Assembly: GCA_013178005.1 (NCBI GenBank)
Contig: JABLXL010000053.1
Coordinates: forward strand, 1-39,010
Direction: 5' to 3'
Length of the DNA stretch: 39,010 nucleotides
Origin: Actinomycetota bacterium
GTDB lineage: Bacteria; Actinomycetota; Geothermincolia; Geothermincolales; RBG-13-55-18
The notes beneath the pieces were generated by a model. It was not told where the DNA came from. It searched no databases and saw only the letters and a program-made list of their open reading frames with translations. Shown here piece by piece: positions 4,740-38,657 of this stretch; within the stretch, counting starts at the first letter, position 1; each line of letters begins with the position of its first letter. Both the position numbers and the translations under genes were made by a program.

Positions 4740-6941
4740 TCACCTGGAAGGAGACGCCTCCGGAGCCCCGTCCAGGATATCGGCGGTCAGGACGGTGAGG
4801 GAGTGGGGCGGGAAGCGGTAGGCGCCGGTGTCGCTCCAGGCGGAGGAGATGGGCCTGACCGCGTCGGGACATTCCAGGGAATTGCCATCGAGGTAGGAGG
4901 CCGATGTCAGCACGACGGCCCCGCCGGCCTCGGAGACCTCCAGCCCTTCCCACGTTATGGCCGCCTCGATAATCCGCGACGGATGCCTGTTCACCACGGC
5001 CAGGGTGATGGAACGGTCCGTGCGCGTGGCCGAGACGTCCAGGTAGGGCACCTCGACGCCGGCGCCGTTTTCCGCCTGCCCCGGCGGCGCGTAGCTCCCG
5101 CATTCCACGCTCACCGCGATGCCCCGGTCCCCGCAGAAGCGGCGATACATGCTGAAAACATGGAACGAGGGGGTGAGGACCGCCTCCCTGTGGTGATCCT
5201 CGTGGTCAATCCGGATGAGCATGGTCTCGAAGAGCGTGCGGCAGGCCGCCTCTACCACGTCCGAGTGCCTCTGCAGCACATTCAAGACGAGGGCCGTCCA
5301 CAAGCCGCCCTCCAGCGCGGCTGAGTCCCAGTCCTCATTTTCGTGTTCCGGCCACCACTCGGTGATGGACATGGGCATGCCCCGGGAATATCCGTCACCG
5401 GCGAGTACGTCCCGGAGGCGCGCGATGTTCTCCTCCACCGTGATGGGAGTGGACAGCATGTAAAGATAGGCCTCCCCCGGGCCTGCATCCATCTTCAGTT
5501 CCTGGCACACGTGCCACCCGAAGACCTCAGCCTGTCCGCCTATCGTCCGCAGCAGGGGCCCGTACCAGGAGGGCTCGTGATGCCCGTCGGCTATCACTCT
5601 GATGCTCGGGTCCACCTCGGTCATGGCCTTCCGGTACGCCAGGAAGGCGGCGCCGTATTCCTCCGGCGTGACATGGCCGTTCTCCCACTCCCCGTACTGC
5701 TCGTTGCCTATCTCCCAGTGCCTGATGGCGTACGGCTCAGGGTGGCCGTCCTCCGCCCTGCGCCGCGCCCAGTAACCTACCGTGCGCCAGTCAGTCCCCT
5801 TCCGGTCCACGCCGATGACGGAGGCGTCCGAGGGATCGCCGTTGGCGTATGCCACCCAGGCCGCCGCCTCCTCGACGGTGCCGTCGCCGAAGTTCACCAC
5901 CATGTGTGGCTCCGCGCCGATGGCGCGGCAGAAAGCCACGAATTCGCCGGTGCCGAAATCCAGGCGCTGGTAGGAACCCCAGTGCTCATCCCAGTTGGGC
6001 GAGCCCCTCTCGTCGATGGGGCCTATGCCCTCCACCCAGTGGTTGGCCGTCTGGTCGGCGAAGCATCCCCCGGGGTAGCGCATTACTCCGGGCCGCAACT
6101 CGCGGTAGAGCTCCAGCGCCCGCTCGCGCACACCGCCCACGTTACGGGAGGACATGAGGGAGGCCTCGTCGAAGAGGACCTCTCCGGTTCCGGTGAAAAA
6201 GACCTCCAGCCGCGCGGCGGCTTCATGCGCAAGCGCGGGAAATGTGACCTCCTTCCTGCTCCACGAATCCTCGGGAGAGCCGAGCGACACCTCCGACAGG
6301 ATGGCAGTTCCTTCCATGTCAGCGAGGCGCGCCGTGACCGTCCCCGCCGAGGCGTCACCCTTCATGTAGATATAGAACCCATAATCTCCCGGCGGCGAAA
6401 GGAGCACGGCCTGGCAAAGCCCGACGCGGCCCGCGCCGCCGCTCTTCACCACCGATTGCGCGTATGCCCCCCGCGGGTTATAGCCGCCGGGCGCCAGCGA
6501 CCAGGAGGCGTTCACCCCCTGTTCCCGCAGCGGGAACCAGGCCAAGCCGGCCTGCTCCCCGGAAACGCCGTTCGCGTCCCCGTCCGGCTCGTCGAAGCCC
6601 CGGTTCCGCAGCTCCTGCGCCCACAATCCGGCGGGTCCGTTAATGATGCCCGGCAGGAACTCGATAAACCCCCCGTATATGCCCTCCGGGACCTCCGCCC
6701 CTTCCCCGTCCGCGCCATGCACGGTAATGCGCGCCGCCTCAACCTCCCCATCCTTTGGGCCTCCACCGCAGGAGGCGCAAAGCAGCGGCGCAACAGCCAT
6801 TCCCAGTGCCGCCAGGGCGGCACAGAAGAGTCTCGCCCATCTCCGTCTAGCCGTGTTTACCGCGCCCTCCTTGTCAGCGTGGAGTATCCTTCGTTCAGAA
6901 TATACTAGAAAAAAGAAGAACGGCGACACCGGAAAGAACAA
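4740..6941 (-). CDS. GH51-like alpha-L-arabinofuranosidase, probable lipoprotein
   Basis: Clan GH-A glycosidase. The acid/base glutamate is seen in RHWEIGNEQYGEW and the nucleophile glutamate in SITEWWPEHE. The preceding MRYPGGCFAD and NWDEHWG motifs are typical of GH51 arabinofuranosidases. An N-terminal carbohydrate-binding-like beta domain comes before the barrel and a beta-sandwich follows it. The likely substrate is arabinose-containing polysaccharide outside the membrane. The start is problematic. The reading frame opens at TTG 6941 (or GTG 6929), but the clear ribosome binding site AAGGAGG lies at 6866-6872. Five bases after it the frame reads GTA (6858-6860), not a start codon. From there the product would be a perfect lipoprotein precursor (NTARRRWARLF..., lipobox CASC). 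The real N-terminus is probably at 6860. Confidence 0.8.
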   Translation of the reverse strand: MFFPVSPFFFFLVYSERRILHADKEGAVNTARRRWARLFCAALAALGMAVAPLLCASCGGGPKDGEVEAARITVHGADGEGAEVPEGIYGGFIEFLPGIINGPAGLWAQELRNRGFDEPDGDANGVSGEQAGLAWFPLREQGVNASWSLAPGGYNPRGAYAQSVVKSGGAGRVGLCQAVLLSPPGDYGFYIYMKGDASAGTVTARLADMEGTAILSEVSLGSPEDSWSRKEVTFPALAHEAAARLEVFFTGTGEVLFDEASLMSSRNVGGVRERALELYRELRPGVMRYPGGCFADQTANHWVEGIGPIDERGSPNWDEHWGSYQRLDFGTGEFVAFCRAIGAEPHMVVNFGDGTVEEAAAWVAYANGDPSDASVIGVDRKGTDWRTVGYWARRRAEDGHPEPYAIRHWEIGNEQYGEWENGHVTPEEYGAAFLAYRKAMTEVDPSIRVIADGHHEPSWYGPLLRTIGGQAEVFGWHVCQELKMDAGPGEAYLYMLSTPITVEENIARLRDVLAGDGYSRGMPMSITEWWPEHENEDWDSAALEGGLWTALVLNVLQRHSDVVEAACRTLFETMLIRIDHEDHHREAVLTPSFHVFSMYRRFCGDRGIAVSVECGSYAPPGQAENGAGVEVPYLDVSATRTDRSITLAVVNRHPSRIIEAAITWEGLEVSEAGGAVVLTSASYLDGNSLECPDAVRPISSAWSDTGAYRFPPHSLTVLTADILDGAPEASPSR

Positions 6942-7062
6942 CCTTGGGCTTGCCTTGCCGGTGGGTCACGGGAGCGCGATCACGGTCAGCCCTTTTTCAA
7001 AGAAAGAGGGTGACCTATTGGACAGGAAGATCAGCTCGGCACTCGTGGCAAGGGCTCGTTCG

Positions 7063-10998: not shown

Positions 10999-11667
10999 TC
11001 ATCCCGAGAGCCGGTGTCGATCATCCCCGCCGCGGCGCCGCTTAAAGGCGCTCGCCCCGAAGCAGGCTAACCCGAACCAACCCATGGCGAAGAGCGGTAA
11101 GTAAAGTATGAGCGACTCCTTTTCTGCCTCGTCGTCCTCCTTCTTATCTTCCTCTTCCTCTTCCTTTTTCTCTTTTTCTGTCTCTGTCTCTTTCTCTTCC
11201 TTCTCCCCGTCCCCGCCCGGGGCTGGACTGGGTTCGGTGATGACGTCCGGCGGGGCGGTGGGCTCAGGCGCGGGCGAGGGCCCGGTGGTGACGTCCGGCG
11301 GGGCGGTGGGCTCAGGCGCGGGCGAGGGCCCGGTGGTGACGTCCGGCGGGGCGGTGGGCTCCGTCCTATAAGACGGCGAAGGGGATGTCACGACGTCCGG
11401 TGCCAGCTCTCCAGCGCCATCAAGGGGCGTCGCCGAGGAGATGGCGTCGCTTCCCTCAAGGCCGTTCCCGACCGGCGACGCTCCCGTGCCGGCGTCCGCC
11501 ACGCTCCCCTCCTCCGACGCGAGCGAGGGCGCGGCAACCGCATCCCTTTCCGCGTAACCGTCGCCCTTATGGTATCTTCCCCCGATGGCGAACCCGAAGG
11601 TGACCGCGACGATGGTCGCGAAAGCCGCCAGGCCCAACAGGAACCTCAAGTTCGAGAACCTTCTCAC
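10999..11667 (-). CDS. Low-complexity, twice membrane-anchored surface protein
   Basis: About 222 residues, no family recognised. The N-terminus (RRFSNLRFLLG then AFATIVAVTFGFAIGG) is a signal anchor. The middle carries three near-identical 16-residue units of the type PTAPPDVTTGPSPAPE, followed by about 40 residues of Lys/Glu/Asp runs. It ends with a transmembrane helix (LILYLPLFAMGWFGLACFGA) and a basic tail. The middle would be extracytoplasmic and disordered. The start chosen is GTG 11667, eight bases after AAAGG; GTG 11676 overlaps that site. It sits directly upstream of the rnfD-like gene. Confidence 0.7.
   Translation of the reverse strand: MRRFSNLRFLLGLAAFATIVAVTFGFAIGGRYHKGDGYAERDAVAAPSLASEEGSVADAGTGASPVGNGLEGSDAISSATPLDGAGELAPDVVTSPSPSYRTEPTAPPDVTTGPSPAPEPTAPPDVTTGPSPAPEPTAPPDVITEPSPAPGGDGEKEEKETETEKEKKEEEEEDKKEDDEAEKESLILYLPLFAMGWFGLACFGASAFKRRRGGDDRHRLSG
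11243..11362 (-). repeat. 48-bp in-frame tandem repeat (2.5 copies)
   Basis: Identical 48-bp units begin at 11243, 11291 and 11339 (starting ACGTCCGGCGGGGCGG). They encode the 16-residue Pro/Thr-rich units of the surface protein. Near-perfect identity suggests recent expansion. Confidence 0.9.
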
Positions 11668-11777
11668 CTGTACCACCTTTTACATGCCAGCCCGCTCCCA
11701 GTTGTTGCTGATATTTTCGTTTCCCGCTATTGGATTTAAAATGACAGCTGTCAACCTGCCCTCATCGGGGTGAGGGT

Positions 11778-12020
11778 GCCCTGAAAATAGCGCATCTGCC
11801 ACGACATATCGCGTCCTGGATGCCTCGCGGCTGGCTTCGTCCCCGCATGGTGTCACGTACTCGCCGCATGGGGACCTGCCCTGAAAATAGCGCATCTGCC
11901 ACGACATATCGCGTCCTGAATGCCTCGCAGCTGGCTTCGTCCTCGCATGATGTCACGTACTCGCGGCATGGGGACCTGCCCTGAAAACAGCGCATCTGCC
12001 ACGACATATCGTGCCTTGAC
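11778..12020. repeat. 100-bp tandem repeats downstream of a pseudogene
   Basis: Units begin at 11778, 11878 and 11978 with GCCCTGAAAATAGCGCATCT or a close variant, a period of exactly 100 bp. The first two are nearly identical and the third merges into the 3' part of the acyl-CoA synthetase pseudogene. No coding role is visible. The frames crossing the array change when it leaves the repeats. Confidence 0.9.
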
Positions 12021-12029
12021 CACCTCGCG

Positions 12030-12551
12030 GTTATTTTCATCCCCGATGGCATCGCGCTCGGAGGCGGAGAGCGAGTCCAGGTCCAGCCATCCCACGGGCA
12101 CCCAGGTGTCCGCGGCGTTATATGCAGGAGGCCGACTTTCTTCACGCTCTTGAGGTTGGGGGCCGCTTCCAGCGCCTGGGGCACCAGGACGTCCTCCACG
12201 AAGAAGAGGCGGGAACCCCCGTTGTTGACGATGTGCTCGATCTCGTTGGGTTTTTAGCATGAAGTTGAGGATGTCGACCACGCACCCTATCTTGCACGCC
12301 CCCAGCCAGGCATACATATACGTGCGAGGCAGTTGTTAGTCATGAAGGATGTGCGGCCTCCCTTCCCGGCCTAAAGTTTCTGGAAGACGTGGGCCATGAG
12401 GCAGCAGTTGCGGTTGAGTTCCTCGAAGGTGACCTTCAGCCCCATGAACACCAGTGGGGCGCGCCCTGGGTACTTGGCCGCTCTGCGCGCGTGGATGTCC
12501 CCCATGTTTAACCTGCGCAGCATGTTTCGTGACGCTCTCGTTGCCAGACAT
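12030..12551 (-). pseudogene. Acyl-CoA synthetase (AMP-binding) pseudogene, N-terminal part
   Basis: Remains of a fatty-acyl-CoA ligase-like gene. The original start is probably ATG 12551 after GGGAG (MSGNESVTK). After a frameshift it reads MGDIHARRAAKYPGRAPLVF, then MGLKVTFEELNRN. A stop at about 12371 is followed, in other frames, by YAWLGACKIGCVVDILNFML and then FVEDVLVPQALEAAPNLKS and WVPVGWLDLDSL. These match, in order, the first 150 or so residues of AMP-binding synthetases. The phosphate-binding TSGTTG motif and everything after it are missing; the gene dissolves into the 100-bp repeats. At least three frameshifts or stops are needed to join the pieces. Confidence 0.8.
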
Positions 12552-22010: not shown

Positions 22011-22398
22011 CAGGGCTGGCCATCGGCCTAAGGCCCAGGTGCCAGGGCTATCGGCCGATTCAAGCGGTTATTAAACTGCCTTTTTCAGTGTGTGTAGCAG
22101 ATAAGCGGCAGGCAGACATATTAGGGATTATGCTTTATATCCCGGAAGCGCGGGCAGGAAGGGCGGTCGGGGTCGTCGCTGGCCGAGAGACAACCGTTTA
22201 GGCCTGGGGGTCAGGGCTGGCCATCGGCCTAAGGCCCAGGTGCCAGGGCTATCGGCCGATTCAAGCGGTTATTAAACTGCCTTTTTCAGTGTGTGTAGCA
22301 GATAAGCGGCAGGCAGACATGTTAGGGATTATGCTTTATATCCCGGAAGCGCGGGCAGGGAGGGCGGTCGGGGTCGTCGCCGGCCGAGAGACAACCGT
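22011..22398. repeat. 201-bp tandem duplication next to the IS110 element
   Basis: Unit 1 (22011-22211) and unit 2 (22212 to about 22398) begin CAGGGCTGGCCATCGGCCT and differ at only a few positions. Further degenerate starts of the unit occur to the left of the IS (20662). No gene is seen in either unit. Confidence 0.93.
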
Positions 22399-27840: not shown

Positions 27841-28169
27841 GCGCCTCCTTGCGGGTATGATGCCGGATGCCCCGTGGACAAGGTCGGGGACCGGGCGGAA
27901 CCACCCCCATCTCCGCACTTCAAGGCCCGCTACCGGACTTTGCCGGGACCGACGGGTCTTTTTTCGTAAACCATGCCGCGGGCACAGGAAGGATCCGGGC
28001 AACACCCCCTAGGAGCTTACCCGGGCCCCGTGATCGCTCTGCTTGCAGGACTCATAGGAGCATCTGTAACATGCCCCTTGCCCGCTTGACGTCGGGAATT
28101 GCGGATATCTTCCGCATCGGATAGAATACCCACCAGCCAGGACTTCTTAAGCTCATGGGGGTAAAACAG

Positions 28170-28781
28170 ATGGTAAAGATCCTGGGGATCGCCGGAAGCC
28201 CGCGCTTGAACGGAAACACCGCGATGCTCCTGGACGAGGCCCTCAAGGGGGCCAAAGAAGCCGGCGCGACCATTAACAAGATCGTGGTATGCAACCGCGA
28301 GATATACCCCTGCCAGGCGTGCGACGACTGCCGAAAAGAGGGAGAGTGCACCATAGACGACGCCATGGACAAGATTTACAGCCTTACCACCTCCTCTCAC
28401 GGCATTATCCTGGCCGCCCCGGTCTATTTCAACTCCCTCAACGCCCAGACCAAGGCCCTCATCGACCGCCACCAGTGCATGTGGGCGCGCAAGGCCCTCC
28501 TGGGGATGGACGTCACCGACCCGGACACCAGGCAAGCCCGCCGCGGGCTCTTCCTCGCCACCGCGGGCGCTGACGACCCCCGCGCCTTCGACGGAGCCAT
28601 AAAGGTGGTGGATATGTTCTTCGATGTCCTGGACATTAAATACTATGAGCGCCTGCTCTTCTTCCGCATGGACCGCAAGGGCGCCATAAAAGAACACCCC
28701 ACAGCCCTGCGGAACGCCTACGCCGCCGGCGAGCACTTGGTGGTGGAAATAGAGCGCAGCCTGGGAGAGAAAAAGGCCTGA
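28170..28781 (+). CDS. Iron-sulfur flavoprotein (NADPH-dependent FMN reductase-like)
   Basis: 203 residues with a flavodoxin-like fold: the FMN phosphate loop GIAGSPRLNGNT at the start and the APVYFNSLNAQTKALIDR motif. The insertion CQACDDCRKEGEC (Cys-x2-Cys-x2-Cys-x5-Cys) is the compact [4Fe-4S] motif of the Isf family from methanogens and other anaerobes, which pass electrons between ferredoxin and oxygen or other acceptors. ATG 28170 is eight bases after GGGGG; ATG 28155 is an alternative. It lies upstream of selD and is separated from it by its own promoter. Confidence 0.88.
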   Translation: MVKILGIAGSPRLNGNTAMLLDEALKGAKEAGATINKIVVCNREIYPCQACDDCRKEGECTIDDAMDKIYSLTTSSHGIILAAPVYFNSLNAQTKALIDRHQCMWARKALLGMDVTDPDTRQARRGLFLATAGADDPRAFDGAIKVVDMFFDVLDIKYYERLLFFRMDRKGAIKEHPTALRNAYAAGEHLVVEIERSLGEKKA

Positions 28782-28915: not shown

Positions 28916-28948
28916 GTTTTATTATGGTTACCATCAGGAGGTTTAATA

Positions 28949-29989
28949 ATGTCGCGCGAGATACGCCTCACTCACCTCTCCAGTAAATCGGGTTGAGCGG
29001 CGAAGGTGGGTCCGGAGGACCTCGAGAAAGTACTGCGGCTCCTGCCCCTGGATGACCTGGGGCGCGAGATATTGGTGGGGCTGGACACGCCGGATGACGC
29101 CGCGGTCTATATGCTGGACGAGGAGACCGCGCTCGTGCACACCCTGGATTTCTTCACCCCCATCGTTGATGATCCCTACGATTTCGGCCGCATCGCCGCG
29201 GCCAACGCCCTGAGCGACGTTTACGCCATGGGGGGCATCCCCCTTTCCGCCATGAATATCGTATGTTTTCCCTGCTCACTGGGCATGGAAATCCTGGCCA
29301 GGATCCTTGAAGGCGGGCTCGCCGCCATCCGTGGCGCGGGTGCCGTTCTCCTGGGCGGGCACACCGTGGAGGACGCAGAGCCCAAGTACGGGTTGGCGGT
29401 CACCGGCAGGGTCCATCCAGACCGCGTTCTAACCTGCCAGGGCGCGGAAGAGGGCGACCTCCTGGTGCTGACCAAACCCCTTGGAACGGGGGTGCTTGCG
29501 ACCGCCCTCAAGGGCGATTTTCTGACCGAGGAGGAAATGGGGGAAGCGGTGGAGGGCATGGCATCCCTGAACGACCGCGCCTCGAGGGCAGCGGTGCTGG
29601 CCGGGGCGCACGCCTGCACCGACGTAACCGGGTTCGGGCTCGCCGGGCACCTCCTGAACATGCTGTCTGGCAACGGCCTCGGATGCGAGATCGAGGTCTC
29701 GCGGCTTCCCCTCTACCCGCGGGCGAGGGAGATGGCGGAGATGGGGATGGTCCCCGCGGGCGCCTACAAGAACCGGGATTTCCTCTCGCCTATGGTGGAG
29801 ATCCATTCCGATGTGGACGACGTAAGTCGGGACATCGTATTCGATCCCCAGACCTCGGGCGGCCTTCTCCTGGCGATGCCCGAGAAAGCGCTGGGCGTTT
29901 TCGCGCGGGAAATGGGAGGGGAATGCTTCTGGGCGCCCATCGGCAGGTTCACGGCAAACGCGGCGGGCCGGGTGCGCGTACTGCCATGA
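28949..29989 (+). CDS. selD: Selenophosphate synthetase SelD, itself a selenoprotein (UGA codon 16)
   Basis: 346 residues when TGA at 28994-28996 is read as selenocysteine. SelD makes selenophosphate from selenide and ATP. ATG 28949 follows AGGAGG by seven bases and reads MSREIRLTHLSSKSG, then U16, then AAKVGPEDLEKVL, in frame with the rest. The layout matches SelD proteins with Cys/Sec at the catalytic position; U16 and Lys19 correspond to Cys17 and Lys20 of the E. coli enzyme. Later motifs are DTPDDAAVY, VHTLDFFTPIVDDPY, NALSDVYAMG, GGHTVEDAEPKYG, TDVTGFGLAGHL and DPQTSGGLL. A SECIS-like hairpin lies directly after the TGA. A gene caller ignoring Sec would start at GTG 29006 and lose the active site. 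Confidence 0.93.
28994..29024 (+). promoter_or_regulatory. Candidate SECIS element after the selD UGA
   Basis: Downstream of TGA (28994-28996), GGTCC (29009-29013) pairs with GGACC (29017-29021) around a GGA loop. The stem extends through a G-U pair and, past a bulged U (29007), a further G-C pair. A bulged U and a G-containing apical loop about 17-20 bases after UGA are the features SelB recognises in bacterial SECIS hairpins. Folded by eye only. Confidence 0.6.
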
Positions 29990-30095: not shown

Positions 30096-30680
30096 ATGAG
30101 AGAGTTGGTGGACGCGCGGGGCCTGGCGTGCCCCACGCCGGTGGTGCGGACCAGGGAAGCGCTCAAGGGGGGCGCCGCGGAGATCGAGGTGCTGGTGGAC
30201 AACCCTACCGCCAGGGACAACGTATGCCGTTTCGCCGCCTCGCAGGGATGCCGCAGCGAGGTCTTCGAGGAGGAGGGCATGTTCCGCATTGCCATAACCA
30301 GGGGCGAGGAGGAGGCTGACGCGGCAAGCTCGCCCGAGACATCCGCGCGCACCGTGGTGGTTCTTTCGGCGGACGTGATGGGCCGCGGGGACGAGGGGCT
30401 GGGAAAGATACTCATCAAGGCCTTCTTAAACACCCTGGCGGAAAGCGATCCGCCTCCCTGGAGGGTGGTGCTGTTCAACCGCGGGGTGCTCCTGGCCGTG
30501 GATGGCGGCGAGGGGGTGGAAGCCCTTTCCAACCTGGAGCGCATGGGCGTTGAAGTGCTGGTCTGTGGAACCTGTCTCGACTACTTCAAGGCTAAGGAAC
30601 GGGTGGCGGTGGGGACGGTGAGCAACATGTACGACATCCTCACCACCATGCTCTCCGCCACCAACTCCGTGACCATATAG
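30096..30680 (+). CDS. yedF: YedF: selenium-metabolism sulfurtransferase-like protein
   Basis: 194 residues. The N-terminal TusA-like domain has the Cys-Pro motif ARGLACPTPVVRTREAL (Cys12). The C-terminal DsrE-like domain runs from VVVLSADVMGRGDEGLGKIL to the end, with VLVCGTCLDYF. YedF is repeatedly found next to selD and selA and is thought to handle reactive selenium or sulfur for SelD; its biochemical role is not firmly established. ATG 30096 follows GGGAGG. It lies 106 bases after selD, probably in one transcript. Confidence 0.9.
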   Translation: MRELVDARGLACPTPVVRTREALKGGAAEIEVLVDNPTARDNVCRFAASQGCRSEVFEEEGMFRIAITRGEEEADAASSPETSARTVVVLSADVMGRGDEGLGKILIKAFLNTLAESDPPPWRVVLFNRGVLLAVDGGEGVEALSNLERMGVEVLVCGTCLDYFKAKERVAVGTVSNMYDILTTMLSATNSVTI

Positions 30681-30920: not shown

Positions 30921-32342
30921 ATGGAGAAAAAGGACTACCTGAGAAGCCTCTCCTCGGTGAACGACCTCATCCAGGCCGTTTACCGCAGCCGTCTCATGGG
31001 GAGCAAGGCCATCCCGCGCGAGCTGGTCACCGAGGCCTCGCGCACCGTTCTCGACGGCATCCGGGAGGCCATCCTCGCCGCCAGGGACGAGATGGCCCTG
31101 GAGGAAATCAGCACGGACACCGAGGAGCTGGTCTCCCTGGTGGAAAAGGTGGTGGAGGAGAAGCTGCAGATGAGCTTCCGGCGGGTGATCAACGCCACCG
31201 GCATCGTGATCCATACCAACCTCGGCCGTTCCCTTCTCTCGCGGCCGGCGCTGGAAGCCCTGGCGACCGCCGGCGCGCACTACAACAACCTGGAGTTCAG
31301 GCTCGAGGACGGCGCGCGGGGCTCGCGCCAGGAACACCTGCGGGGGCTGCTCTGCGACCTCACGGGCGCCGAGTCGGCCCTGGTGGTCAACAACAACGCC
31401 GCCGCGGTGCTCCTCGCCCTCACCACCCACGCCAAGGGCCGGGAGGTCATCGTGAGCCGGGGCCAACTCATAGAGATCGGGGGCTCCTTCCGCCTGCCCG
31501 AGGTCATGGCCCAGAGCGGCGCAAGGCTGGTCGAGGTGGGCACCACCAACAAGACCTACCTGGAGGACTACCGCCGCGCCATCACCAGCGAGACGGCGAT
31601 GCTCATGCGCGCCCATCCCAGCAACTACCGCATCACCGGCTTCACCGCCGAGGTGGGGATAAAGGAACTGGCGGGGCTGGCGGGGGAATACGGCCTGGTG
31701 GTCCTGGACGACCTGGGCAGCGGGGTGTACGTGGACCTCTCCGAGCACGGCATGCAATACGAGCCCACCATCAGGCGCTCCCTAGAAGATGGCGCCGACC
31801 TGGTATGCTTCAGCGGCGACAAGCTCCTGGGAGGCCCCCAGGCGGGAATCGTCCTCGGCAGGTCTGACCTGGTGGAGGCCATGGCCCGCCACCCCCTGGC
31901 CCGCGCCTTGAGGGTGGACAAGCTGACCGTGGCCGCCCTCGAGGCCACCCTGCGCCAGTACCTGGATCCCTCACGGGCGCTCAAGGAGATCCCCACCCTG
32001 GCCATGCTCACCACGGATCCCGAGACGCTGCGCAAGCGGGCGCGCCTCCTGGCGAAAAAGATCTCCTCCGGGGGCGCCTTCGAGGCCGAGGTGGTGGAGG
32101 ACGTCTCGCGCGCCGGAGGGGGGGCTTTGCCCATGGAGGACCTCCCCACCTGGACGGTAACCGTGACCTCGACGAGCATGAAGACCTCCGCGCTGGAGGA
32201 GGCATTGCGCAAGGCCGATCCGCCGGTGATCTGCCGCGTCAGGGAGGACCGCGTGATCATGGACATGCGCACGGTGAGCGACGAGGAGGCCGAGCTCATA
32301 GCCTCCGCCTTCAATGAGCTGGCCGGCATGGCCAGCACGTAG
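30921..32342 (+). CDS. selA: L-seryl-tRNA(Sec) selenium transferase SelA
   Basis: 473 residues, PLP-dependent. It converts Ser-tRNA-Sec to Sec-tRNA-Sec using selenophosphate. Landmarks are the N-terminal LRSLSSVNDLIQAVY, INATGIVIHTNLGRSLLS, VNNNAAAVLLAL, and the Schiff-base lysine Lys301 in CFSGDKLLGGPQAG (E. coli Lys295). The C-terminal domain is PPVICRVREDRVIMDMRTV. No good ribosome binding site precedes ATG 30921. TATAAA ends four bases before it, so a near-leaderless transcript is possible. The 240-base gap after yedF contains no gene. selB begins 28 bases after the stop. Confidence 0.96.
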   Translation: MEKKDYLRSLSSVNDLIQAVYRSRLMGSKAIPRELVTEASRTVLDGIREAILAARDEMALEEISTDTEELVSLVEKVVEEKLQMSFRRVINATGIVIHTNLGRSLLSRPALEALATAGAHYNNLEFRLEDGARGSRQEHLRGLLCDLTGAESALVVNNNAAAVLLALTTHAKGREVIVSRGQLIEIGGSFRLPEVMAQSGARLVEVGTTNKTYLEDYRRAITSETAMLMRAHPSNYRITGFTAEVGIKELAGLAGEYGLVVLDDLGSGVYVDLSEHGMQYEPTIRRSLEDGADLVCFSGDKLLGGPQAGIVLGRSDLVEAMARHPLARALRVDKLTVAALEATLRQYLDPSRALKEIPTLAMLTTDPETLRKRARLLAKKISSGGAFEAEVVEDVSRAGGGALPMEDLPTWTVTVTSTSMKTSALEEALRKADPPVICRVREDRVIMDMRTVSDEEAELIASAFNELAGMAST

Positions 32343-32370: not shown

Positions 32371-34278
32371 ATGAAGAACTTCATCATCGGCACCGCCGGC
32401 CATATCGATCACGGCAAGACCGAGCTGATCAAGGCCCTCACGGGCACCGACACCGACCGCCTCAAGGAGGAAAAGGAGCGTGGCATCTCCATCGAGCTGG
32501 GCTTCGCGGAGATGGAGCTCCCGGGCGGCGTGACCGCGGGGGTGGTGGACGTTCCCGGGCACGAACACTTTGTGAAGAACATGCTCGCGGGCGCCACGGG
32601 CTTCGACCTGGTGCTGCTGGTGGTCGCCGCCGACGACGGGGTCATGCCCCAGACCCTGGAGCACCTGGCCATCGTGGACCTCCTGGGGGTCAGGGACGGG
32701 GTGGTGGCGATCACCAAGGCCGACCTGGTCGACGAGGAGATGGTGGAGCTGGTGAAGGAGGACGTGGCCGAGGCCCTGGCGGGCACCGCGCTAGAGGGGG
32801 CGGAGATGGTGGTAACCTCCAGCCGCACCGGCCAGGGCCTGGACGAGCTGCGCTCCGCCCTGGTCAGGGCCGCCGGCAGGGCAGGGGAGCGCGACTCCTC
32901 CGGCCCCTTCCGCCTGCCCGTAGACCGCGTCTTCACCCTCAGGGGCATTGGCACCGTGGTCACCGGCACCCTCTGGGAGGGGAGCGTCGCCGACGGCGAC
33001 GAGGCGGTGATCCAGCCCTCGGGCAGGAAGGTGCGGGTGCGCAACGTACAGGTGCATGGAAAGGAAGTGGAGCGGGCTTGCGCGGGACAGCGCGTGGCAC
33101 TGAACCTCCCGGGCATCTCCACGGACGAGATCGAGCGTGGCGACGTCATCGGAACCCCCGGCCACCTCCACCCCACCCTCATGGTGGACGGACTGCTCCA
33201 CCTCATCACGGGCGCGCCGAGGGCGCTCAAGAACCGTGCGCGCGTGCGCTTCCACCACGGGACCAGGGAGGTGATGGCGCGTGTGGTGCTGCTCGGGGGG
33301 AGGGAGGAGCTGGCGCCGGGAGAGAGCTCATACGTGCAGTTACGCCTCGAGAAGCCGGCGGTGGTGCTCTACGGCGACCGTTATATCCTGCGCAGCTACT
33401 CCCCCGTCACCACCATCGGGGGCGGGCGCATCCTGGACAGCCACCCCCGGAAGCACCGCCCGCACCAGCAAGGGATACTCACAGTCCTGGAGCGGAGGGA
33501 GCGCGGCGTTCCCCGTGATCTCATCCTCCTGGTGGCGGAGGAGAGGGGCCTGCCGCTTACCCGCGGGGAGCTGCTTTCCTGGAGCGAGATAAGGGAGGGG
33601 GATTTCGAGCTGGCCCTGCAGGAGCTGCTATCGGCCGGCGACCTGGTGGAGGTGCAGGGCGACGGTGAGCCCATGTATGTCCCTCCCGCCATCCTTTCCG
33701 ACCTCCAGGACCAGATGGCGCGGCTCGCCGCCGACATGCATGCCGCCAACCCCCTGCGGGCGGGGGTGGAAAAGGAAGCCCTGCGCCGCCGGCTGGACTC
33801 CGGCATGGGCGTCGACGTCTTCGACGTCCTGCTCCGAAGCGCCGTGTCCGCGGGGAGGCTGGAGGTGGAGGGTGGAAGGGTGCGCGAAGCGGGGAAGGGT
33901 GTGACCCTGGGCGAAAAGGAACGCGAGCAGAAGGAGGCCCTGCTGCGGGCCATACGCGAGGGAGGGTTCGCCCCCCCGCTCTTCAAGGAACTCATGGATA
34001 TAACCGGCCTGGAGAAGTCCAAGCTGCGCGATATGCTCAACCTCCTCCTGGAGGAGGGCGAGGTGGAGCAGGTGAACCCCGACTACTTCCTCGCCACTGG
34101 GAAGATCGCCGAGGCGGAGGAACGCATCCGCTCCCACCTGGAAAGCCAGGGCAGCCTGGCGGTGCCCCAGTTAAAGGACATGCTGGGAGCGAGCCGTAAG
34201 TATGCCATTCCCCTGCTCGAGTTCTTCGATCGCAGGCGGGTTACGCGGCGAGAGGGGGATGTCCGCGTCCCTTATTGA
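32371..34278 (+). CDS. selB: Selenocysteine-specific elongation factor SelB
   Basis: 635 residues. It delivers Sec-tRNA-Sec to ribosomes paused at a UGA followed by a SECIS hairpin. The GTPase domain has GHIDHGKT (residues 10-17), [16 protein letters not shown] and ITKADLV. Two EF-Tu-like beta-barrels follow ([14 protein letters not shown]). The C-terminal half is the winged-helix array that binds SECIS RNA ([44 protein letters not shown]). Length is normal. The start 32371 has only GAGG at five bases. The last 17 codons plus stop recur 100 bases downstream. Confidence 0.96.
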
Positions 34279-34580: not shown

Positions 34581-34676
34581 GGAGATGCATCCGTCCTGGT
34601 GGGCGGCACGGTCTTCAAAACCGCTGCGGTGTCGTAACGGGCGCCGGGTAGGTTCGATTCCTACGCATCTCCGCCA
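34581..34676 (+). tRNA. selC: tRNA-Sec (anticodon TCA)
   Basis: 96 bases including encoded CCA. The 8-bp acceptor GGAGATGC/GCATCTCC and 5-bp T stem GTAGG/CCTAC give the long arm typical of bacterial tRNA-Sec. The D stem is 6 bp (CCGTCC/GGGCGG). The anticodon TCA (34615-34617) sits in CTTCAAA. The long variable arm forms a 7-bp stem (CGGTGTC/GGGCGCCG). It completes the sel gene set. A hairpin GGGGGT/ACCCCC (34691-34711) lies 14 bases downstream but lacks a T-run. Confidence 0.97.
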
Positions 34677-35031: not shown

Positions 35032-36162
35032 TCACTCTCCGCCCGCTCGTTCCCTTATCGTTTCCACCTTTTCCCCGAGGTCGGGGGAAACGTGCACCGC
35101 TCCTTCCCCGTCCACCATCATCACCCCATCCTGCTCCATCTCCCGCAGCCACTCCATGCCCTGCGGATACCCCATGATGAAGGCCGCGGTGGACATGGCG
35201 TCAGACCAGGCGCCGTTCCTTCCCCCCAGCACCGTCACCGATATCGCCCCCTGCGCGGGATACCCCGTTCGCGGGTCAAGGATGTGGTGATATCGGATCC
35301 CTCCGTACTCGAAGAAGCGCTGGTAATCTCCCGAGGTGCTGATGTAGGTATCTCCGTCGAGGAGCAAGGTGGCCAGGTATCCCTCTCCCCGTGGGTCCAT
35401 CACCGCTATCCTCCAGTCGTTTCCGCCCTCGCCCCCCGGCTTCTCGCCCATGGTCAGGGAGGTGCTGATCATGTCGATGATGGCGGTGCCAACCCCGCCT
35501 TCCCTCAGCGCTGAGGCGGCCTTGTCCAGCGCGTAACCCTTGGCCACCCCGCCCAGGTCAATGGCCATCCCCTCTCTCGCGAACGCCACGGTGCGCGCTG
35601 CGGGATCCAGGACCAATTTATCGGCTCCCACCTTCTCCAGCGCGTCCTCTATCTCCTCCTGGGCAGGGGGAGGATCGCCCCTCTCGCTCCTCCCCGTAAC
35701 GTCCCACACGTCGATGAGGGGCCCAACGGTGATGTCGAAAAGCCCGCCGCTGGCCTCGTACGCCTGCATCCCTATATCGATCATCTCCCATAGCTCCTCC
35801 GAGACCTCGACCGGCCCGGAGGCGGCGGCGGCGTTGAGGCGGGAAAGCTCGCTCTCGGGATCATAGCGGTCCGCGATACCATCGAGGCGGGACAGCTCCC
35901 CGAAGGCATCCTCGACCGCCCCCTCGACCTGGGCCTGGTTCCTGCCGTAGGCGGTAATGGTCACCAGGTCGTCGAGGACGTACTCCTGGCGCGCGTAGGG
36001 GCGTTTCGAATAACCCGGGTTGAGGACCCTGACCAGTACCACCGCCAGCAAGACGAGCGCCAGGGTGACGGCCATGACGATGAGGGTATCCCGGCGGTTC
36101 TTCCTCCCCAGTTCCAGGTGGCCCGGCTGGCTTTCCTCGGTGGTGTTACGCGGTCGTTCCAT
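35032..36162 (-). CDS. apbE: FAD:protein FMN transferase ApbE
   Basis: 376 residues. ApbE transfers FMN from FAD to a threonine of target proteins such as RnfD, RnfG, NqrB and NqrC, outside the membrane. A signal-anchor helix (TLIVMAVTLALVLLAVVLVRV) is followed by YDPESELSRLN, GLFDITVGPLIDVW, IDLGGVAKGYALDKA, HHILDPRTGYPA and WSDAMSTAAFIMG, the conserved family motifs with the Mg/FAD site. The anchor is uncleaved or weakly lipoprotein-like (no Cys), so the enzyme is membrane-tethered. ATG 36162 has no ribosome binding site but a -10 box seven bases before it. It is the likely modifier of the orphan RnfD 24 kb away. Confidence 0.93.
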   Translation of the reverse strand: MERPRNTTEESQPGHLELGRKNRRDTLIVMAVTLALVLLAVVLVRVLNPGYSKRPYARQEYVLDDLVTITAYGRNQAQVEGAVEDAFGELSRLDGIADRYDPESELSRLNAAAASGPVEVSEELWEMIDIGMQAYEASGGLFDITVGPLIDVWDVTGRSERGDPPPAQEEIEDALEKVGADKLVLDPAARTVAFAREGMAIDLGGVAKGYALDKAASALREGGVGTAIIDMISTSLTMGEKPGGEGGNDWRIAVMDPRGEGYLATLLLDGDTYISTSGDYQRFFEYGGIRYHHILDPRTGYPAQGAISVTVLGGRNGAWSDAMSTAAFIMGYPQGMEWLREMEQDGVMMVDGEGAVHVSPDLGEKVETIRERAGGE

Positions 36163-36194: not shown

Positions 36195-38657
36195 CTAATG
36201 GTCATCGACGCCGGCTTCCTTAATCCCCGCCCCGACGAGGGATCCGCAGCCCTGCTCCACCTCACCCAGCTCATCCACGTGGGGAGGAGGCTCTGCCCCG
36301 ACTATATATCTGCGCATGTAACGCCCGGAAAGCTCAAGGAGGAGGGAAAACACCGCCGCGATGCCCAGCGCCTGCAGGAGCACCACGAGGCGCGGCAGGT
36401 GGAGCTGGAAGAACTCGCGGAACCAAGGGATGGCCAGCACCCCCACGAAGGCGCCCGCCATGGACGCCAGGAGCCCTCCCCGCCAGGAGAGTAATGGCCT
36501 CGAGAGGTAGCCCAGCACCGCAAGCCCTACGATGGTGAGGACGATCACCGCCACGGTTCGGGACTCCTCGAGTCTGACGCCGTTGCTCCTGGCCATGGCG
36601 TTACCGGTAAAGGTCGCCGCCCCGGCGATGAAGCCGGCGGGCACGGCGAAGTAGAGCACGCGGCGCAGCAATCCCGGTCGGTAGCGCTTCCGGCTGCGCG
36701 CGAAGGAGAGGACGAAAGCGGGAATGCCTATGGTCAGGGAGCCCACCAGCGAGATATGGCGGGGCAGGAAGGGGTACTCCCAGGCGACGAGGGCCACGCC
36801 GATGGCGAGAAGGGCGGCGTACACCGTCTTGGTGAGGAAGAGATTGGCCACCCTCTCCATGTTGGCCATTACCCGCCTCCCCTCCGCCACCACGCCCGGC
36901 AGGGTCGAGAACCTGCCGTCCAGCAGAACGAGCTGGGCCACGGCCTTGGTGGACGGCGCTCCCGACCCCATGGCGATGCCCATGTCCGCGTCCTTTAAGG
37001 CGAGGGTGTCGTTGACCCCGTCTCCCGTCATGGCCACCACGTGCCCCGCGGACTGCAGGGCATGCACCATGAGGCGTTTCTGCTCCGGGACCACGCGCCC
37101 GAAGACCGTCTTCTCCCGCAACACCTCCGCGAGTCCCTCCACCTCCCCGGGAAGCTCCCTCGCGTCCACGGGATCCCCCGCGCCCGGGACCCCCACCCGC
37201 TCCGCGACCGCCCCCACCGTCAGGGGGTTATCCCCGGAGATGACCCTGATACCCACCTCCTGGCGCCTGAAGTACTCCAGGGTATCCGCGGCGTCCGGCC
37301 GCAGCTTCTCCTCGAATACCAGCAGCGCGGCGGGGCGGATACCCTCCGGGAGACCCTCTCCGACCACCGCCCTATCGGCGCGGGCGAACAAGAGGACCCT
37401 CCTACCGGTAGCGGCTATTTCGTCCGCCCGCTTCCTGAACTCGGCGGACCCCGGTAGCTCCCTCAACAGCACCTCCGGAGCTCCCAGGACAAAGGTTCCT
37501 TTCCCCGCAAATGAAGCGGCGCTCCACTTCCAGGCCGATGAGAAAGGCACCACCTCCTCGGCCCTCCATCCCTCGGGCGGCGGATACGCGGCGGCAAGGG
37601 CGGTTATGGTGGCGTTCCCGGAAGGTGCCGCCGCGGCGAATGCGCCCAGGGCTTCGTCGAGCTCGCCGTCCCCCTCAAGCTCGATCAGCTTCGAGAACTC
37701 CAGCGTGCCCTCGGTGAGCGTCCCCGTCTTGTCCAGGCAGATCACGTCCACCTTCGCCAGGCCCTCCACCGCCGGCAGCTCCTGCACCAGCACCCTACGG
37801 CGCGCCAGGGCCACCGCGCTCACCGCGAACACCAGGCTGGTGAGCAGGACCAGACCCTCGGGCACCATGCCCACCAGCCCCGCAACCGTGGCCAGGATGG
37901 AGTCGTCGAAAGTGCTGTGGGTGAGGAGTTGGCTCACGGCCAGCAACACCGCCGCGGGGATCATCACGTAGGTTATATAGCGCAGGATGGTGTTTATGGC
38001 GTCGCGCAGGTCAGATTGCACCAGGGCGTACTTCTTGGCCTCCGCCGCCAGCTTCCTGGCGTAGGCATCCTCGCCCACCGCCGTGGCCCTGAACCTCCCG
38101 GCCCCGGAGGAGACGAAGCTCCCCGAGAGCACGCTGTCCCCGGCGCTCTTGGCCACGGGAACCGACTCCCCGGTGAGCAGCGATTCGTCCAACTCGAGGC
38201 CGTTCGATTCCAGCACCACTCCATCCACCAGCACCTGGTCGCCCGCCCTGAGCTCCACCAGGTCGTCGAGGACCAACTCCTCTCTTTGTATCTCCCTGGT
38301 TTCCCCATCGCGCACCACCCTCGCCCTCGGCGCGCTCAACAGGGAGAGTTTGTCCAGGGTCATCTTGGCGCGCAGTTCCTGCACGATGCCGATCAGGGTA
38401 TTGAACACCAGCACCATGCCGAAAAGGGCGTCCCGCCAGGGCCCGATGACCAGCACCACCACGGCCAGGGCACCTAGCACGGCATTAAAGCGGTTGAAGA
38501 CGTTGGTGCGGATGATGGAGGCCAGGGAACGGCTGGTCTGGTCCACCACCCTGTTGACCTGGCCTAGCTCGATGCGCTGCTCGACCTGATTCAGGCTCAA
38601 GCCTCGCTCTACATAGCCTTCGCCCAGTTCGCGCTCCGCCGCTTCCCCCGACATCAC
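36195..38657 (-). CDS. ctpE: P-type ATPase CtpE-like (cation transport, probably Ca2+)
   Basis: 820 residues. The phosphorylated aspartate is Asp309 in CLDKTGTLT. TGES (162-165) is the actuator motif, MVPEGL lies in the M4 ion-binding helix and MTGDGVNDTLALKDAD is the hinge. The sequence resembles mycobacterial CtpE along its whole length (VFNRFNAVLG, VQELRAKMTLDKL, AYARKLAAEAKKY, VQELPAVEGLAKVDV, RVANLFLTKTVY). CtpE in mycobacteria is reported as a calcium uptake pump. No N-terminal metal-binding domain is present. Start GTG 38657 or ATG 38654. apbE follows on the same strand. Confidence 0.93.
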   Translation of the reverse strand: MMSGEAAERELGEGYVERGLSLNQVEQRIELGQVNRVVDQTSRSLASIIRTNVFNRFNAVLGALAVVVLVIGPWRDALFGMVLVFNTLIGIVQELRAKMTLDKLSLLSAPRARVVRDGETREIQREELVLDDLVELRAGDQVLVDGVVLESNGLELDESLLTGESVPVAKSAGDSVLSGSFVSSGAGRFRATAVGEDAYARKLAAEAKKYALVQSDLRDAINTILRYITYVMIPAAVLLAVSQLLTHSTFDDSILATVAGLVGMVPEGLVLLTSLVFAVSAVALARRRVLVQELPAVEGLAKVDVICLDKTGTLTEGTLEFSKLIELEGDGELDEALGAFAAAAPSGNATITALAAAYPPPEGWRAEEVVPFSSAWKWSAASFAGKGTFVLGAPEVLLRELPGSAEFRKRADEIAATGRRVLLFARADRAVVGEGLPEGIRPAALLVFEEKLRPDAADTLEYFRRQEVGIRVISGDNPLTVGAVAERVGVPGAGDPVDARELPGEVEGLAEVLREKTVFGRVVPEQKRLMVHALQSAGHVVAMTGDGVNDTLALKDADMGIAMGSGAPSTKAVAQLVLLDGRFSTLPGVVAEGRRVMANMERVANLFLTKTVYAALLAIGVALVAWEYPFLPRHISLVGSLTIGIPAFVLSFARSRKRYRPGLLRRVLYFAVPAGFIAGAATFTGNAMARSNGVRLEESRTVAVIVLTIVGLAVLGYLSRPLLSWRGGLLASMAGAFVGVLAIPWFREFFQLHLPRLVVLLQALGIAAVFSLLLELSGRYMRRYIVGAEPPPHVDELGEVEQGCGSLVGAGIKEAGVDDH

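Follow-up and report, generated by a model that had tools for sequence, protein, structure and literature searches.

An in-frame UGA codon and a bSECIS-type hairpin in the selenophosphate synthetase gene of an uncultured Solincola-type actinobacterium

The window, meaning here the whole stretch of DNA that was analysed, is a contig of 39,010 bases (64% G+C) from a 3.6-Mb draft genome in 98 contigs, most closely related to MAGs that bear the name Candidatus Solincola (Actinomycetota). A cluster of genes for the synthesis and insertion of selenocysteine (Sec) resides on its forward strand (Table 1). Among the closest relatives, those with loci long enough retain the order selD-yedF-selA-selB, and the FMN-reductase-like gene found upstream of selD is syntenic in most of the closest relatives. 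SelB ends with the C-terminal winged-helix domains SelB-wing_2 and SelB-wing_3, and SelA, SelB and a tRNA-Sec with anticodon UCA provide the genome with a complete Sec decoding set. The forward strand of the sel region yielded no promoter-like site. Genes encoding an ApbE-type flavin transferase (35032-36162) and a P-type ATPase (36195-38657) adjoin the cluster on the opposite strand.

Table 1. Features of the selD locus and of the adjacent sel genes (positions in the window)
Feature	Positions	Strand	Remarks
FMN-reductase-like gene, 5' of selD	28155-28781	+	FMN_red 66.8 bits; without in-frame TGA
Shine-Dalgarno AGGAGG	28936-28941	+	7 nt 5' of ATG 28949
selD	28949-29989	+	346 codons, Sec = codon 16, stop TGA 29987-29989; translated with TGA=U
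Sec-encoding UGA (predicted), catalytic position	28994-28996	+	codon 16 of selD
bSECIS apical hairpin GGUCC-GGA-GGACC	29009-29021	+	folding, synonymous shuffles, covariation
yedF-type gene	30096-30680	+	Pfam TusA 62.9 bits and weak DsrE match
selA, L-seryl-tRNA(Sec) selenium transferase	30921-32342	+	TIGR00474 595.7 bits
selB, Sec-specific elongation factor	32371-34278	+	TIGR00475 381 bits; ORF open from 32314
selC, tRNA-Sec, anticodon UCA	34581-34676	+	ARAGORN; RF01852 78.8 bits

A sequence-only reading of the locus had described an AGGAGG box, an ATG followed by 15 sense codons, a TGA and then an uninterrupted SelD frame, and all of this is borne out by the sequence and its translation. When TGA is read as Sec, the protein begins MSREIRLTHLSSKSGUAAKVGPEDL..., and the frame stays open down to the terminal TGA. 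The product matches the SelD equivalog TIGR00476 with 383.1 bits (cut-off 125) over residues 6-313 in a profile search, and a domain search identified the AIRS and AIRS_C domains. The claim that the TGA falls on the residue that is Cys or Sec in known SelDs was equally correct, since in phmmer alignments residue 16 lies opposite a Cys of both E. coli SelD (3u0o) and Aquifex SelD (2yye). The stretch U16-A-A-K19 supplies the Cys/Sec of the N-terminal loop and then the conserved Lys by which SelD is recognized. As anticipated, standard gene calling truncates the protein, and the table-11 ORF listing reports 29006-29989, 327 aa. The window almost certainly encodes a Sec-type selenophosphate synthetase, with codon 16, a UGA, predicted to be read by SelB and tRNA-Sec(UCA) via a bSECIS element.

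A SECIS-like hairpin with a GGA loop and a bulged U had been proposed to follow the UGA. The hairpin and its loop were found, and the end of the proposed interval, 29024, is about right for it; the bulged U was not, as U29011 is paired with A29019. The bSECIS of E. coli fdhF has a bulged U, unlike the hairpin described here. The 3-nt loop begins with GG and is separated from the UGA by 17 nt; the stem measures 5 bp, or 6 if G29008-U29022 is added, and the predicted energy is -7.9 kcal/mol. Published limits for bSECIS elements are a loop of 3-9 nt with a G in the first two positions, a stem of 4-16 bp, a spacing of 16-37 nt and an MFE of at most -7.5 (PMC13188914). The selD hairpin falls inside all of them, with an energy near the threshold and a short stem.

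When 58 nt (28988-29045) were folded against dinucleotide shuffles, no excess stability was observed (z +0.9). The hairpin region is coding, so that synonymous shuffling is the proper control, and synonymous-codon shuffles replaced dinucleotide shuffles. By this measure, the 30 nt from UGA+9 to UGA+38 of this selD gave z -2.45 (p 0.01), and the mean z of 51 TGA genes was -1.79, while control segments taken from these genes averaged -0.24 (Wilcoxon p 2e-9, an optimistic value because the 51 genes are related). The corresponding z in L053, a Cys-type gene, was -0.6. A hairpin which lies within the bSECIS limits and outdoes synonymous shuffles is the opposite of the missing SECIS fold that had been named as a ground for abandoning the Sec interpretation. 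Codon usage and covariation were looked at as well. Gly21 is encoded by GGT in 12/12 close relatives, while GGT makes up only 39 of the 407 Gly codons (9.6%) elsewhere in those genes. The pair 29011-29019 is UA in 19, GC in 4, CG in 1 and GU in 1 of 27 sequences, with compensatory changes, and is the sole covarying pair. The helix is paired in 92% of cells over these 27 sequences, and slid versions in 65% at most, figures to be read knowing that the sequences were picked to align in register, a choice which favours the structure. The hairpin is selected over and above the encoded protein. Some relatives have the 5-bp stem interrupted or displaced. As read from the alignment, selD genes of the Dethiobacter/Syntrophomonadaceae type (L015, L020, L037, L049, L054 and similar) carry CCAGG-GGA-CCUGG, an apparently shifted stem that retains the GGA loop.

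The gene, the position of its UGA, the hairpin and its conservation, the complete Sec machinery and further UGA-containing selenoprotein genes can all be read directly from the DNA; Sec insertion at codon 16, the enzyme activity of SelD and any feedback are what we infer from it. In the model proposed, the UGA would be read as Sec by SelB and tRNA-Sec(UCA), whose genes lie a few kb further downstream, and the small hairpin placed 17 nt after the codon would direct the insertion. The Sec residue, hosted in a flexible N-terminal loop (GUAAK), would take part in the synthesis of selenophosphate from selenide and ATP, and SelA would use selenophosphate to form the Sec-tRNA needed by SelD itself and by the cell's formate dehydrogenases. 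Since SelD would provide the selenophosphate from which SelA forms Sec-tRNA, and SelB would then insert Sec in SelD, the enzyme would depend on its own product. A positive feedback of SelD on its own synthesis, as put forward by the sequence-only reading, would follow logically, and is already in print, the notion that SelD needs its own product having been published (PMC1794560). A search of the genome retrieved one SelD and one distant match (27%), probably another AIRS-fold enzyme.

The UGA might in addition double as a selenium-sensing switch: whenever Sec-tRNA is missing, translation would stop after 15 codons, SelD would fall, and expression would become bistable. Such behavior would follow from the anatomy, as the genome hosts a single Sec-type SelD and no Cys-type copy was found among its matches. 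The same anatomy, however, is common to all Sec-type SelDs, and nothing in it is specific to this gene, which makes a dedicated switch an unlikely addition to plain Sec insertion.

The ORF caller implies a different gene, in which the TGA is a true stop and translation starts at GTG 29006, to yield a SelD devoid of the N-terminal catalytic loop. Comparison with relatives argues against it. Codon 16 is TGA in 50 of 51 readable relatives, and TGC in one (L053, motif GCACK), in a sample enriched for close relatives because collected via peptide patterns from this SelD. The string RLTxLSSKSG preceding the TGA is retained in 12 Solincola-type genes, and homologues starting at the GTG with no upstream conservation, named beforehand as a possible refutation, are not what was encountered. 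The GUAAK motif is conserved in relatives, too. Over the ten codons 5' of the TGA, 12 close relatives differ pairwise by 359 synonymous and 128 nonsynonymous codon changes, where random change would make 28% of them synonymous; to judge from these counts, purifying selection acts on the N-terminal stretch ahead of the TGA. GTG 29006 is the codon of Val20, and relatives have ATA, CTG, ATC, TTC or CGG in its place; because the codon varies, it is no conserved start, and in many relatives it is no start codon at all. The shorter product would moreover be deprived of both the catalytic Cys/Sec and Lys19. Initiation at the GTG is hardly credible.

A wider view was obtained from 296 drawn Actinomycetota genomes, 194 of which have a match at E 1e-30 or better. 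The in-frame TGA occurs in 12/12 matched genomes of the same family. Outside the family, among the matches listed and as judged by eye, most have the in-frame TGA, and a sizeable minority, presumably Cys-type or truncated genes, lack it. A deltaproteobacterial MAG contig (L017) carries two SelD genes separated by about 4 kb (6001-7020 and 11284-12210), both with UGA at the catalytic position and with a YedF-like match in between. In a draft assembly of 98 contigs, the TGA could be thought of as a sequencing error, or as a TGC/TGT Cys codon that mutated in a pseudogene. Yet, the same TGA is found in independent assemblies and in many phyla. In addition, the motif GUAAK goes with Sec, Ala replacing the second Cys of Cys-type SelDs (GCGCK in E. 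coli, GCACK in L053). The probability left to an error or a decayed gene is close to nil.

Sec insertion at selected UGA codons is not a peculiarity of selD in this genome. Three FdhA genes have a Sec-UGA in the canonical CARLUHS site (L096, L097 and L098, on contigs C6, C12 and C25, respectively), in all cases followed by the same CGUCGCC-GGUCU-GGCG sequence, able to form a hairpin with a GGUCU loop. A GrdB-like frame (L099 3024 (+), contig C34) reads through the UGA in TPGUPMCNRAV, and the protein is probably a further selenoprotein. Site-specific recoding in this organism thus rests on more than selD. Genome-wide reassignment of UGA (code 4 or 25) deserves virtually no credit, as selD itself terminates at a TGA, and a UCA-anticodon tRNA-Sec, SelA and SelB are all present. 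A fourth FdhA-like match with TGA lies, in pieces, on contig C33 (3827-6916). YbbB/MnmH, involved in selenouridine formation, was not found in the genome, while controls including E. coli gave matches; a search for GrdA gave no match in the genome, and none in the control genomes either. A composition-filtered scan of the window for further Sec-UGA genes returned no convincing case, with a filter so strict that selD was missed as well, so that this outcome does not speak against such genes. A literature search on Solincola selenoproteins retrieved nothing relevant.

A second match to RF01852 (65 bits) lies outside the window, on the reverse strand of contig C33 at about 22269-22362 (L093 1501-1590 (-)), and is more noteworthy than the selD UGA itself. 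ARAGORN classifies it as tRNA-Cys(GCA). The molecule is 94 nt long, with a long variable arm, U73 and an encoded CCA; an ordinary tRNA-Cys(GCA) is also present, on contig C4. Of 15 genomes of the family, 9 have a Sec-like tRNA-Cys (relatives L102-L109), in all cases with anticodon GCA. So-called selC* tRNA-Cys, whose acceptor branch is of a modified 8/4 type and has a bulged A51a, have been reported from Firmicutes, Thermodesulfobacteria, Nitrospirae and Proteobacteria (PMC7609411). The tRNA described here is alike overall, but its letters suggest an 8/5-like branch without the A51a bulge, although RNAfold draws 7 plus 6 pairs. The ORFs listed next to this tRNA included no recognisable selB or cysS. 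One may speculate that this tRNA interacts with SelB or the Sec pathway and buffers the self-dependence of SelD, Cys/Sec exchange being programmed at some sites. Such a role is very improbable, as its GCA anticodon does not decode UGA, U73 is suggestive of CysRS, and a single SelB scores above the family cut-off in the genome.

The presence of Sec at this site of SelD, its abundance, and the self-dependence that it would entail are textbook knowledge or already published. The significance of the locus is mostly a matter of annotation, as standard calling drops the first 19 residues, the catalytic Sec included. This uncultured lineage is also confirmed to decode Sec, its predicted selenoproteins being at least SelD and three FdhA, and probably the GrdB-like protein.

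Sec-type SelD is the second most widespread selenoprotein family in prokaryotes (PMC13188914), and Rubrobacter, an actinobacterium, has been listed in connection with SelD (PMC1794560, Zhang et al. 2006). The gene described here is an ordinary Sec-type SelD, a well-known kind of selenoprotein. It shares with bacterial Sec-type SelDs, such as that of Aquifex aeolicus (PDB 2yye/2zod; PMC1794560; Mariotti et al. 2015, PMC4561486), the N-terminal Sec/Cys position, the SGUAAK motif and the AIRS domains, and likewise the in-frame UGA with an adjacent bSECIS; no difference of substance separates them, the host being here an uncultured Solincola-type actinobacterium. The Cys-type SelD of E. coli (3u0o) is a full-length homologue whose catalytic Cys lies opposite residue 16, with Cys in place of Sec and GCGCK in place of GUAAK. 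Compared with the bSECIS consensus (PMC13188914), the hairpin has the smallest loop allowed.
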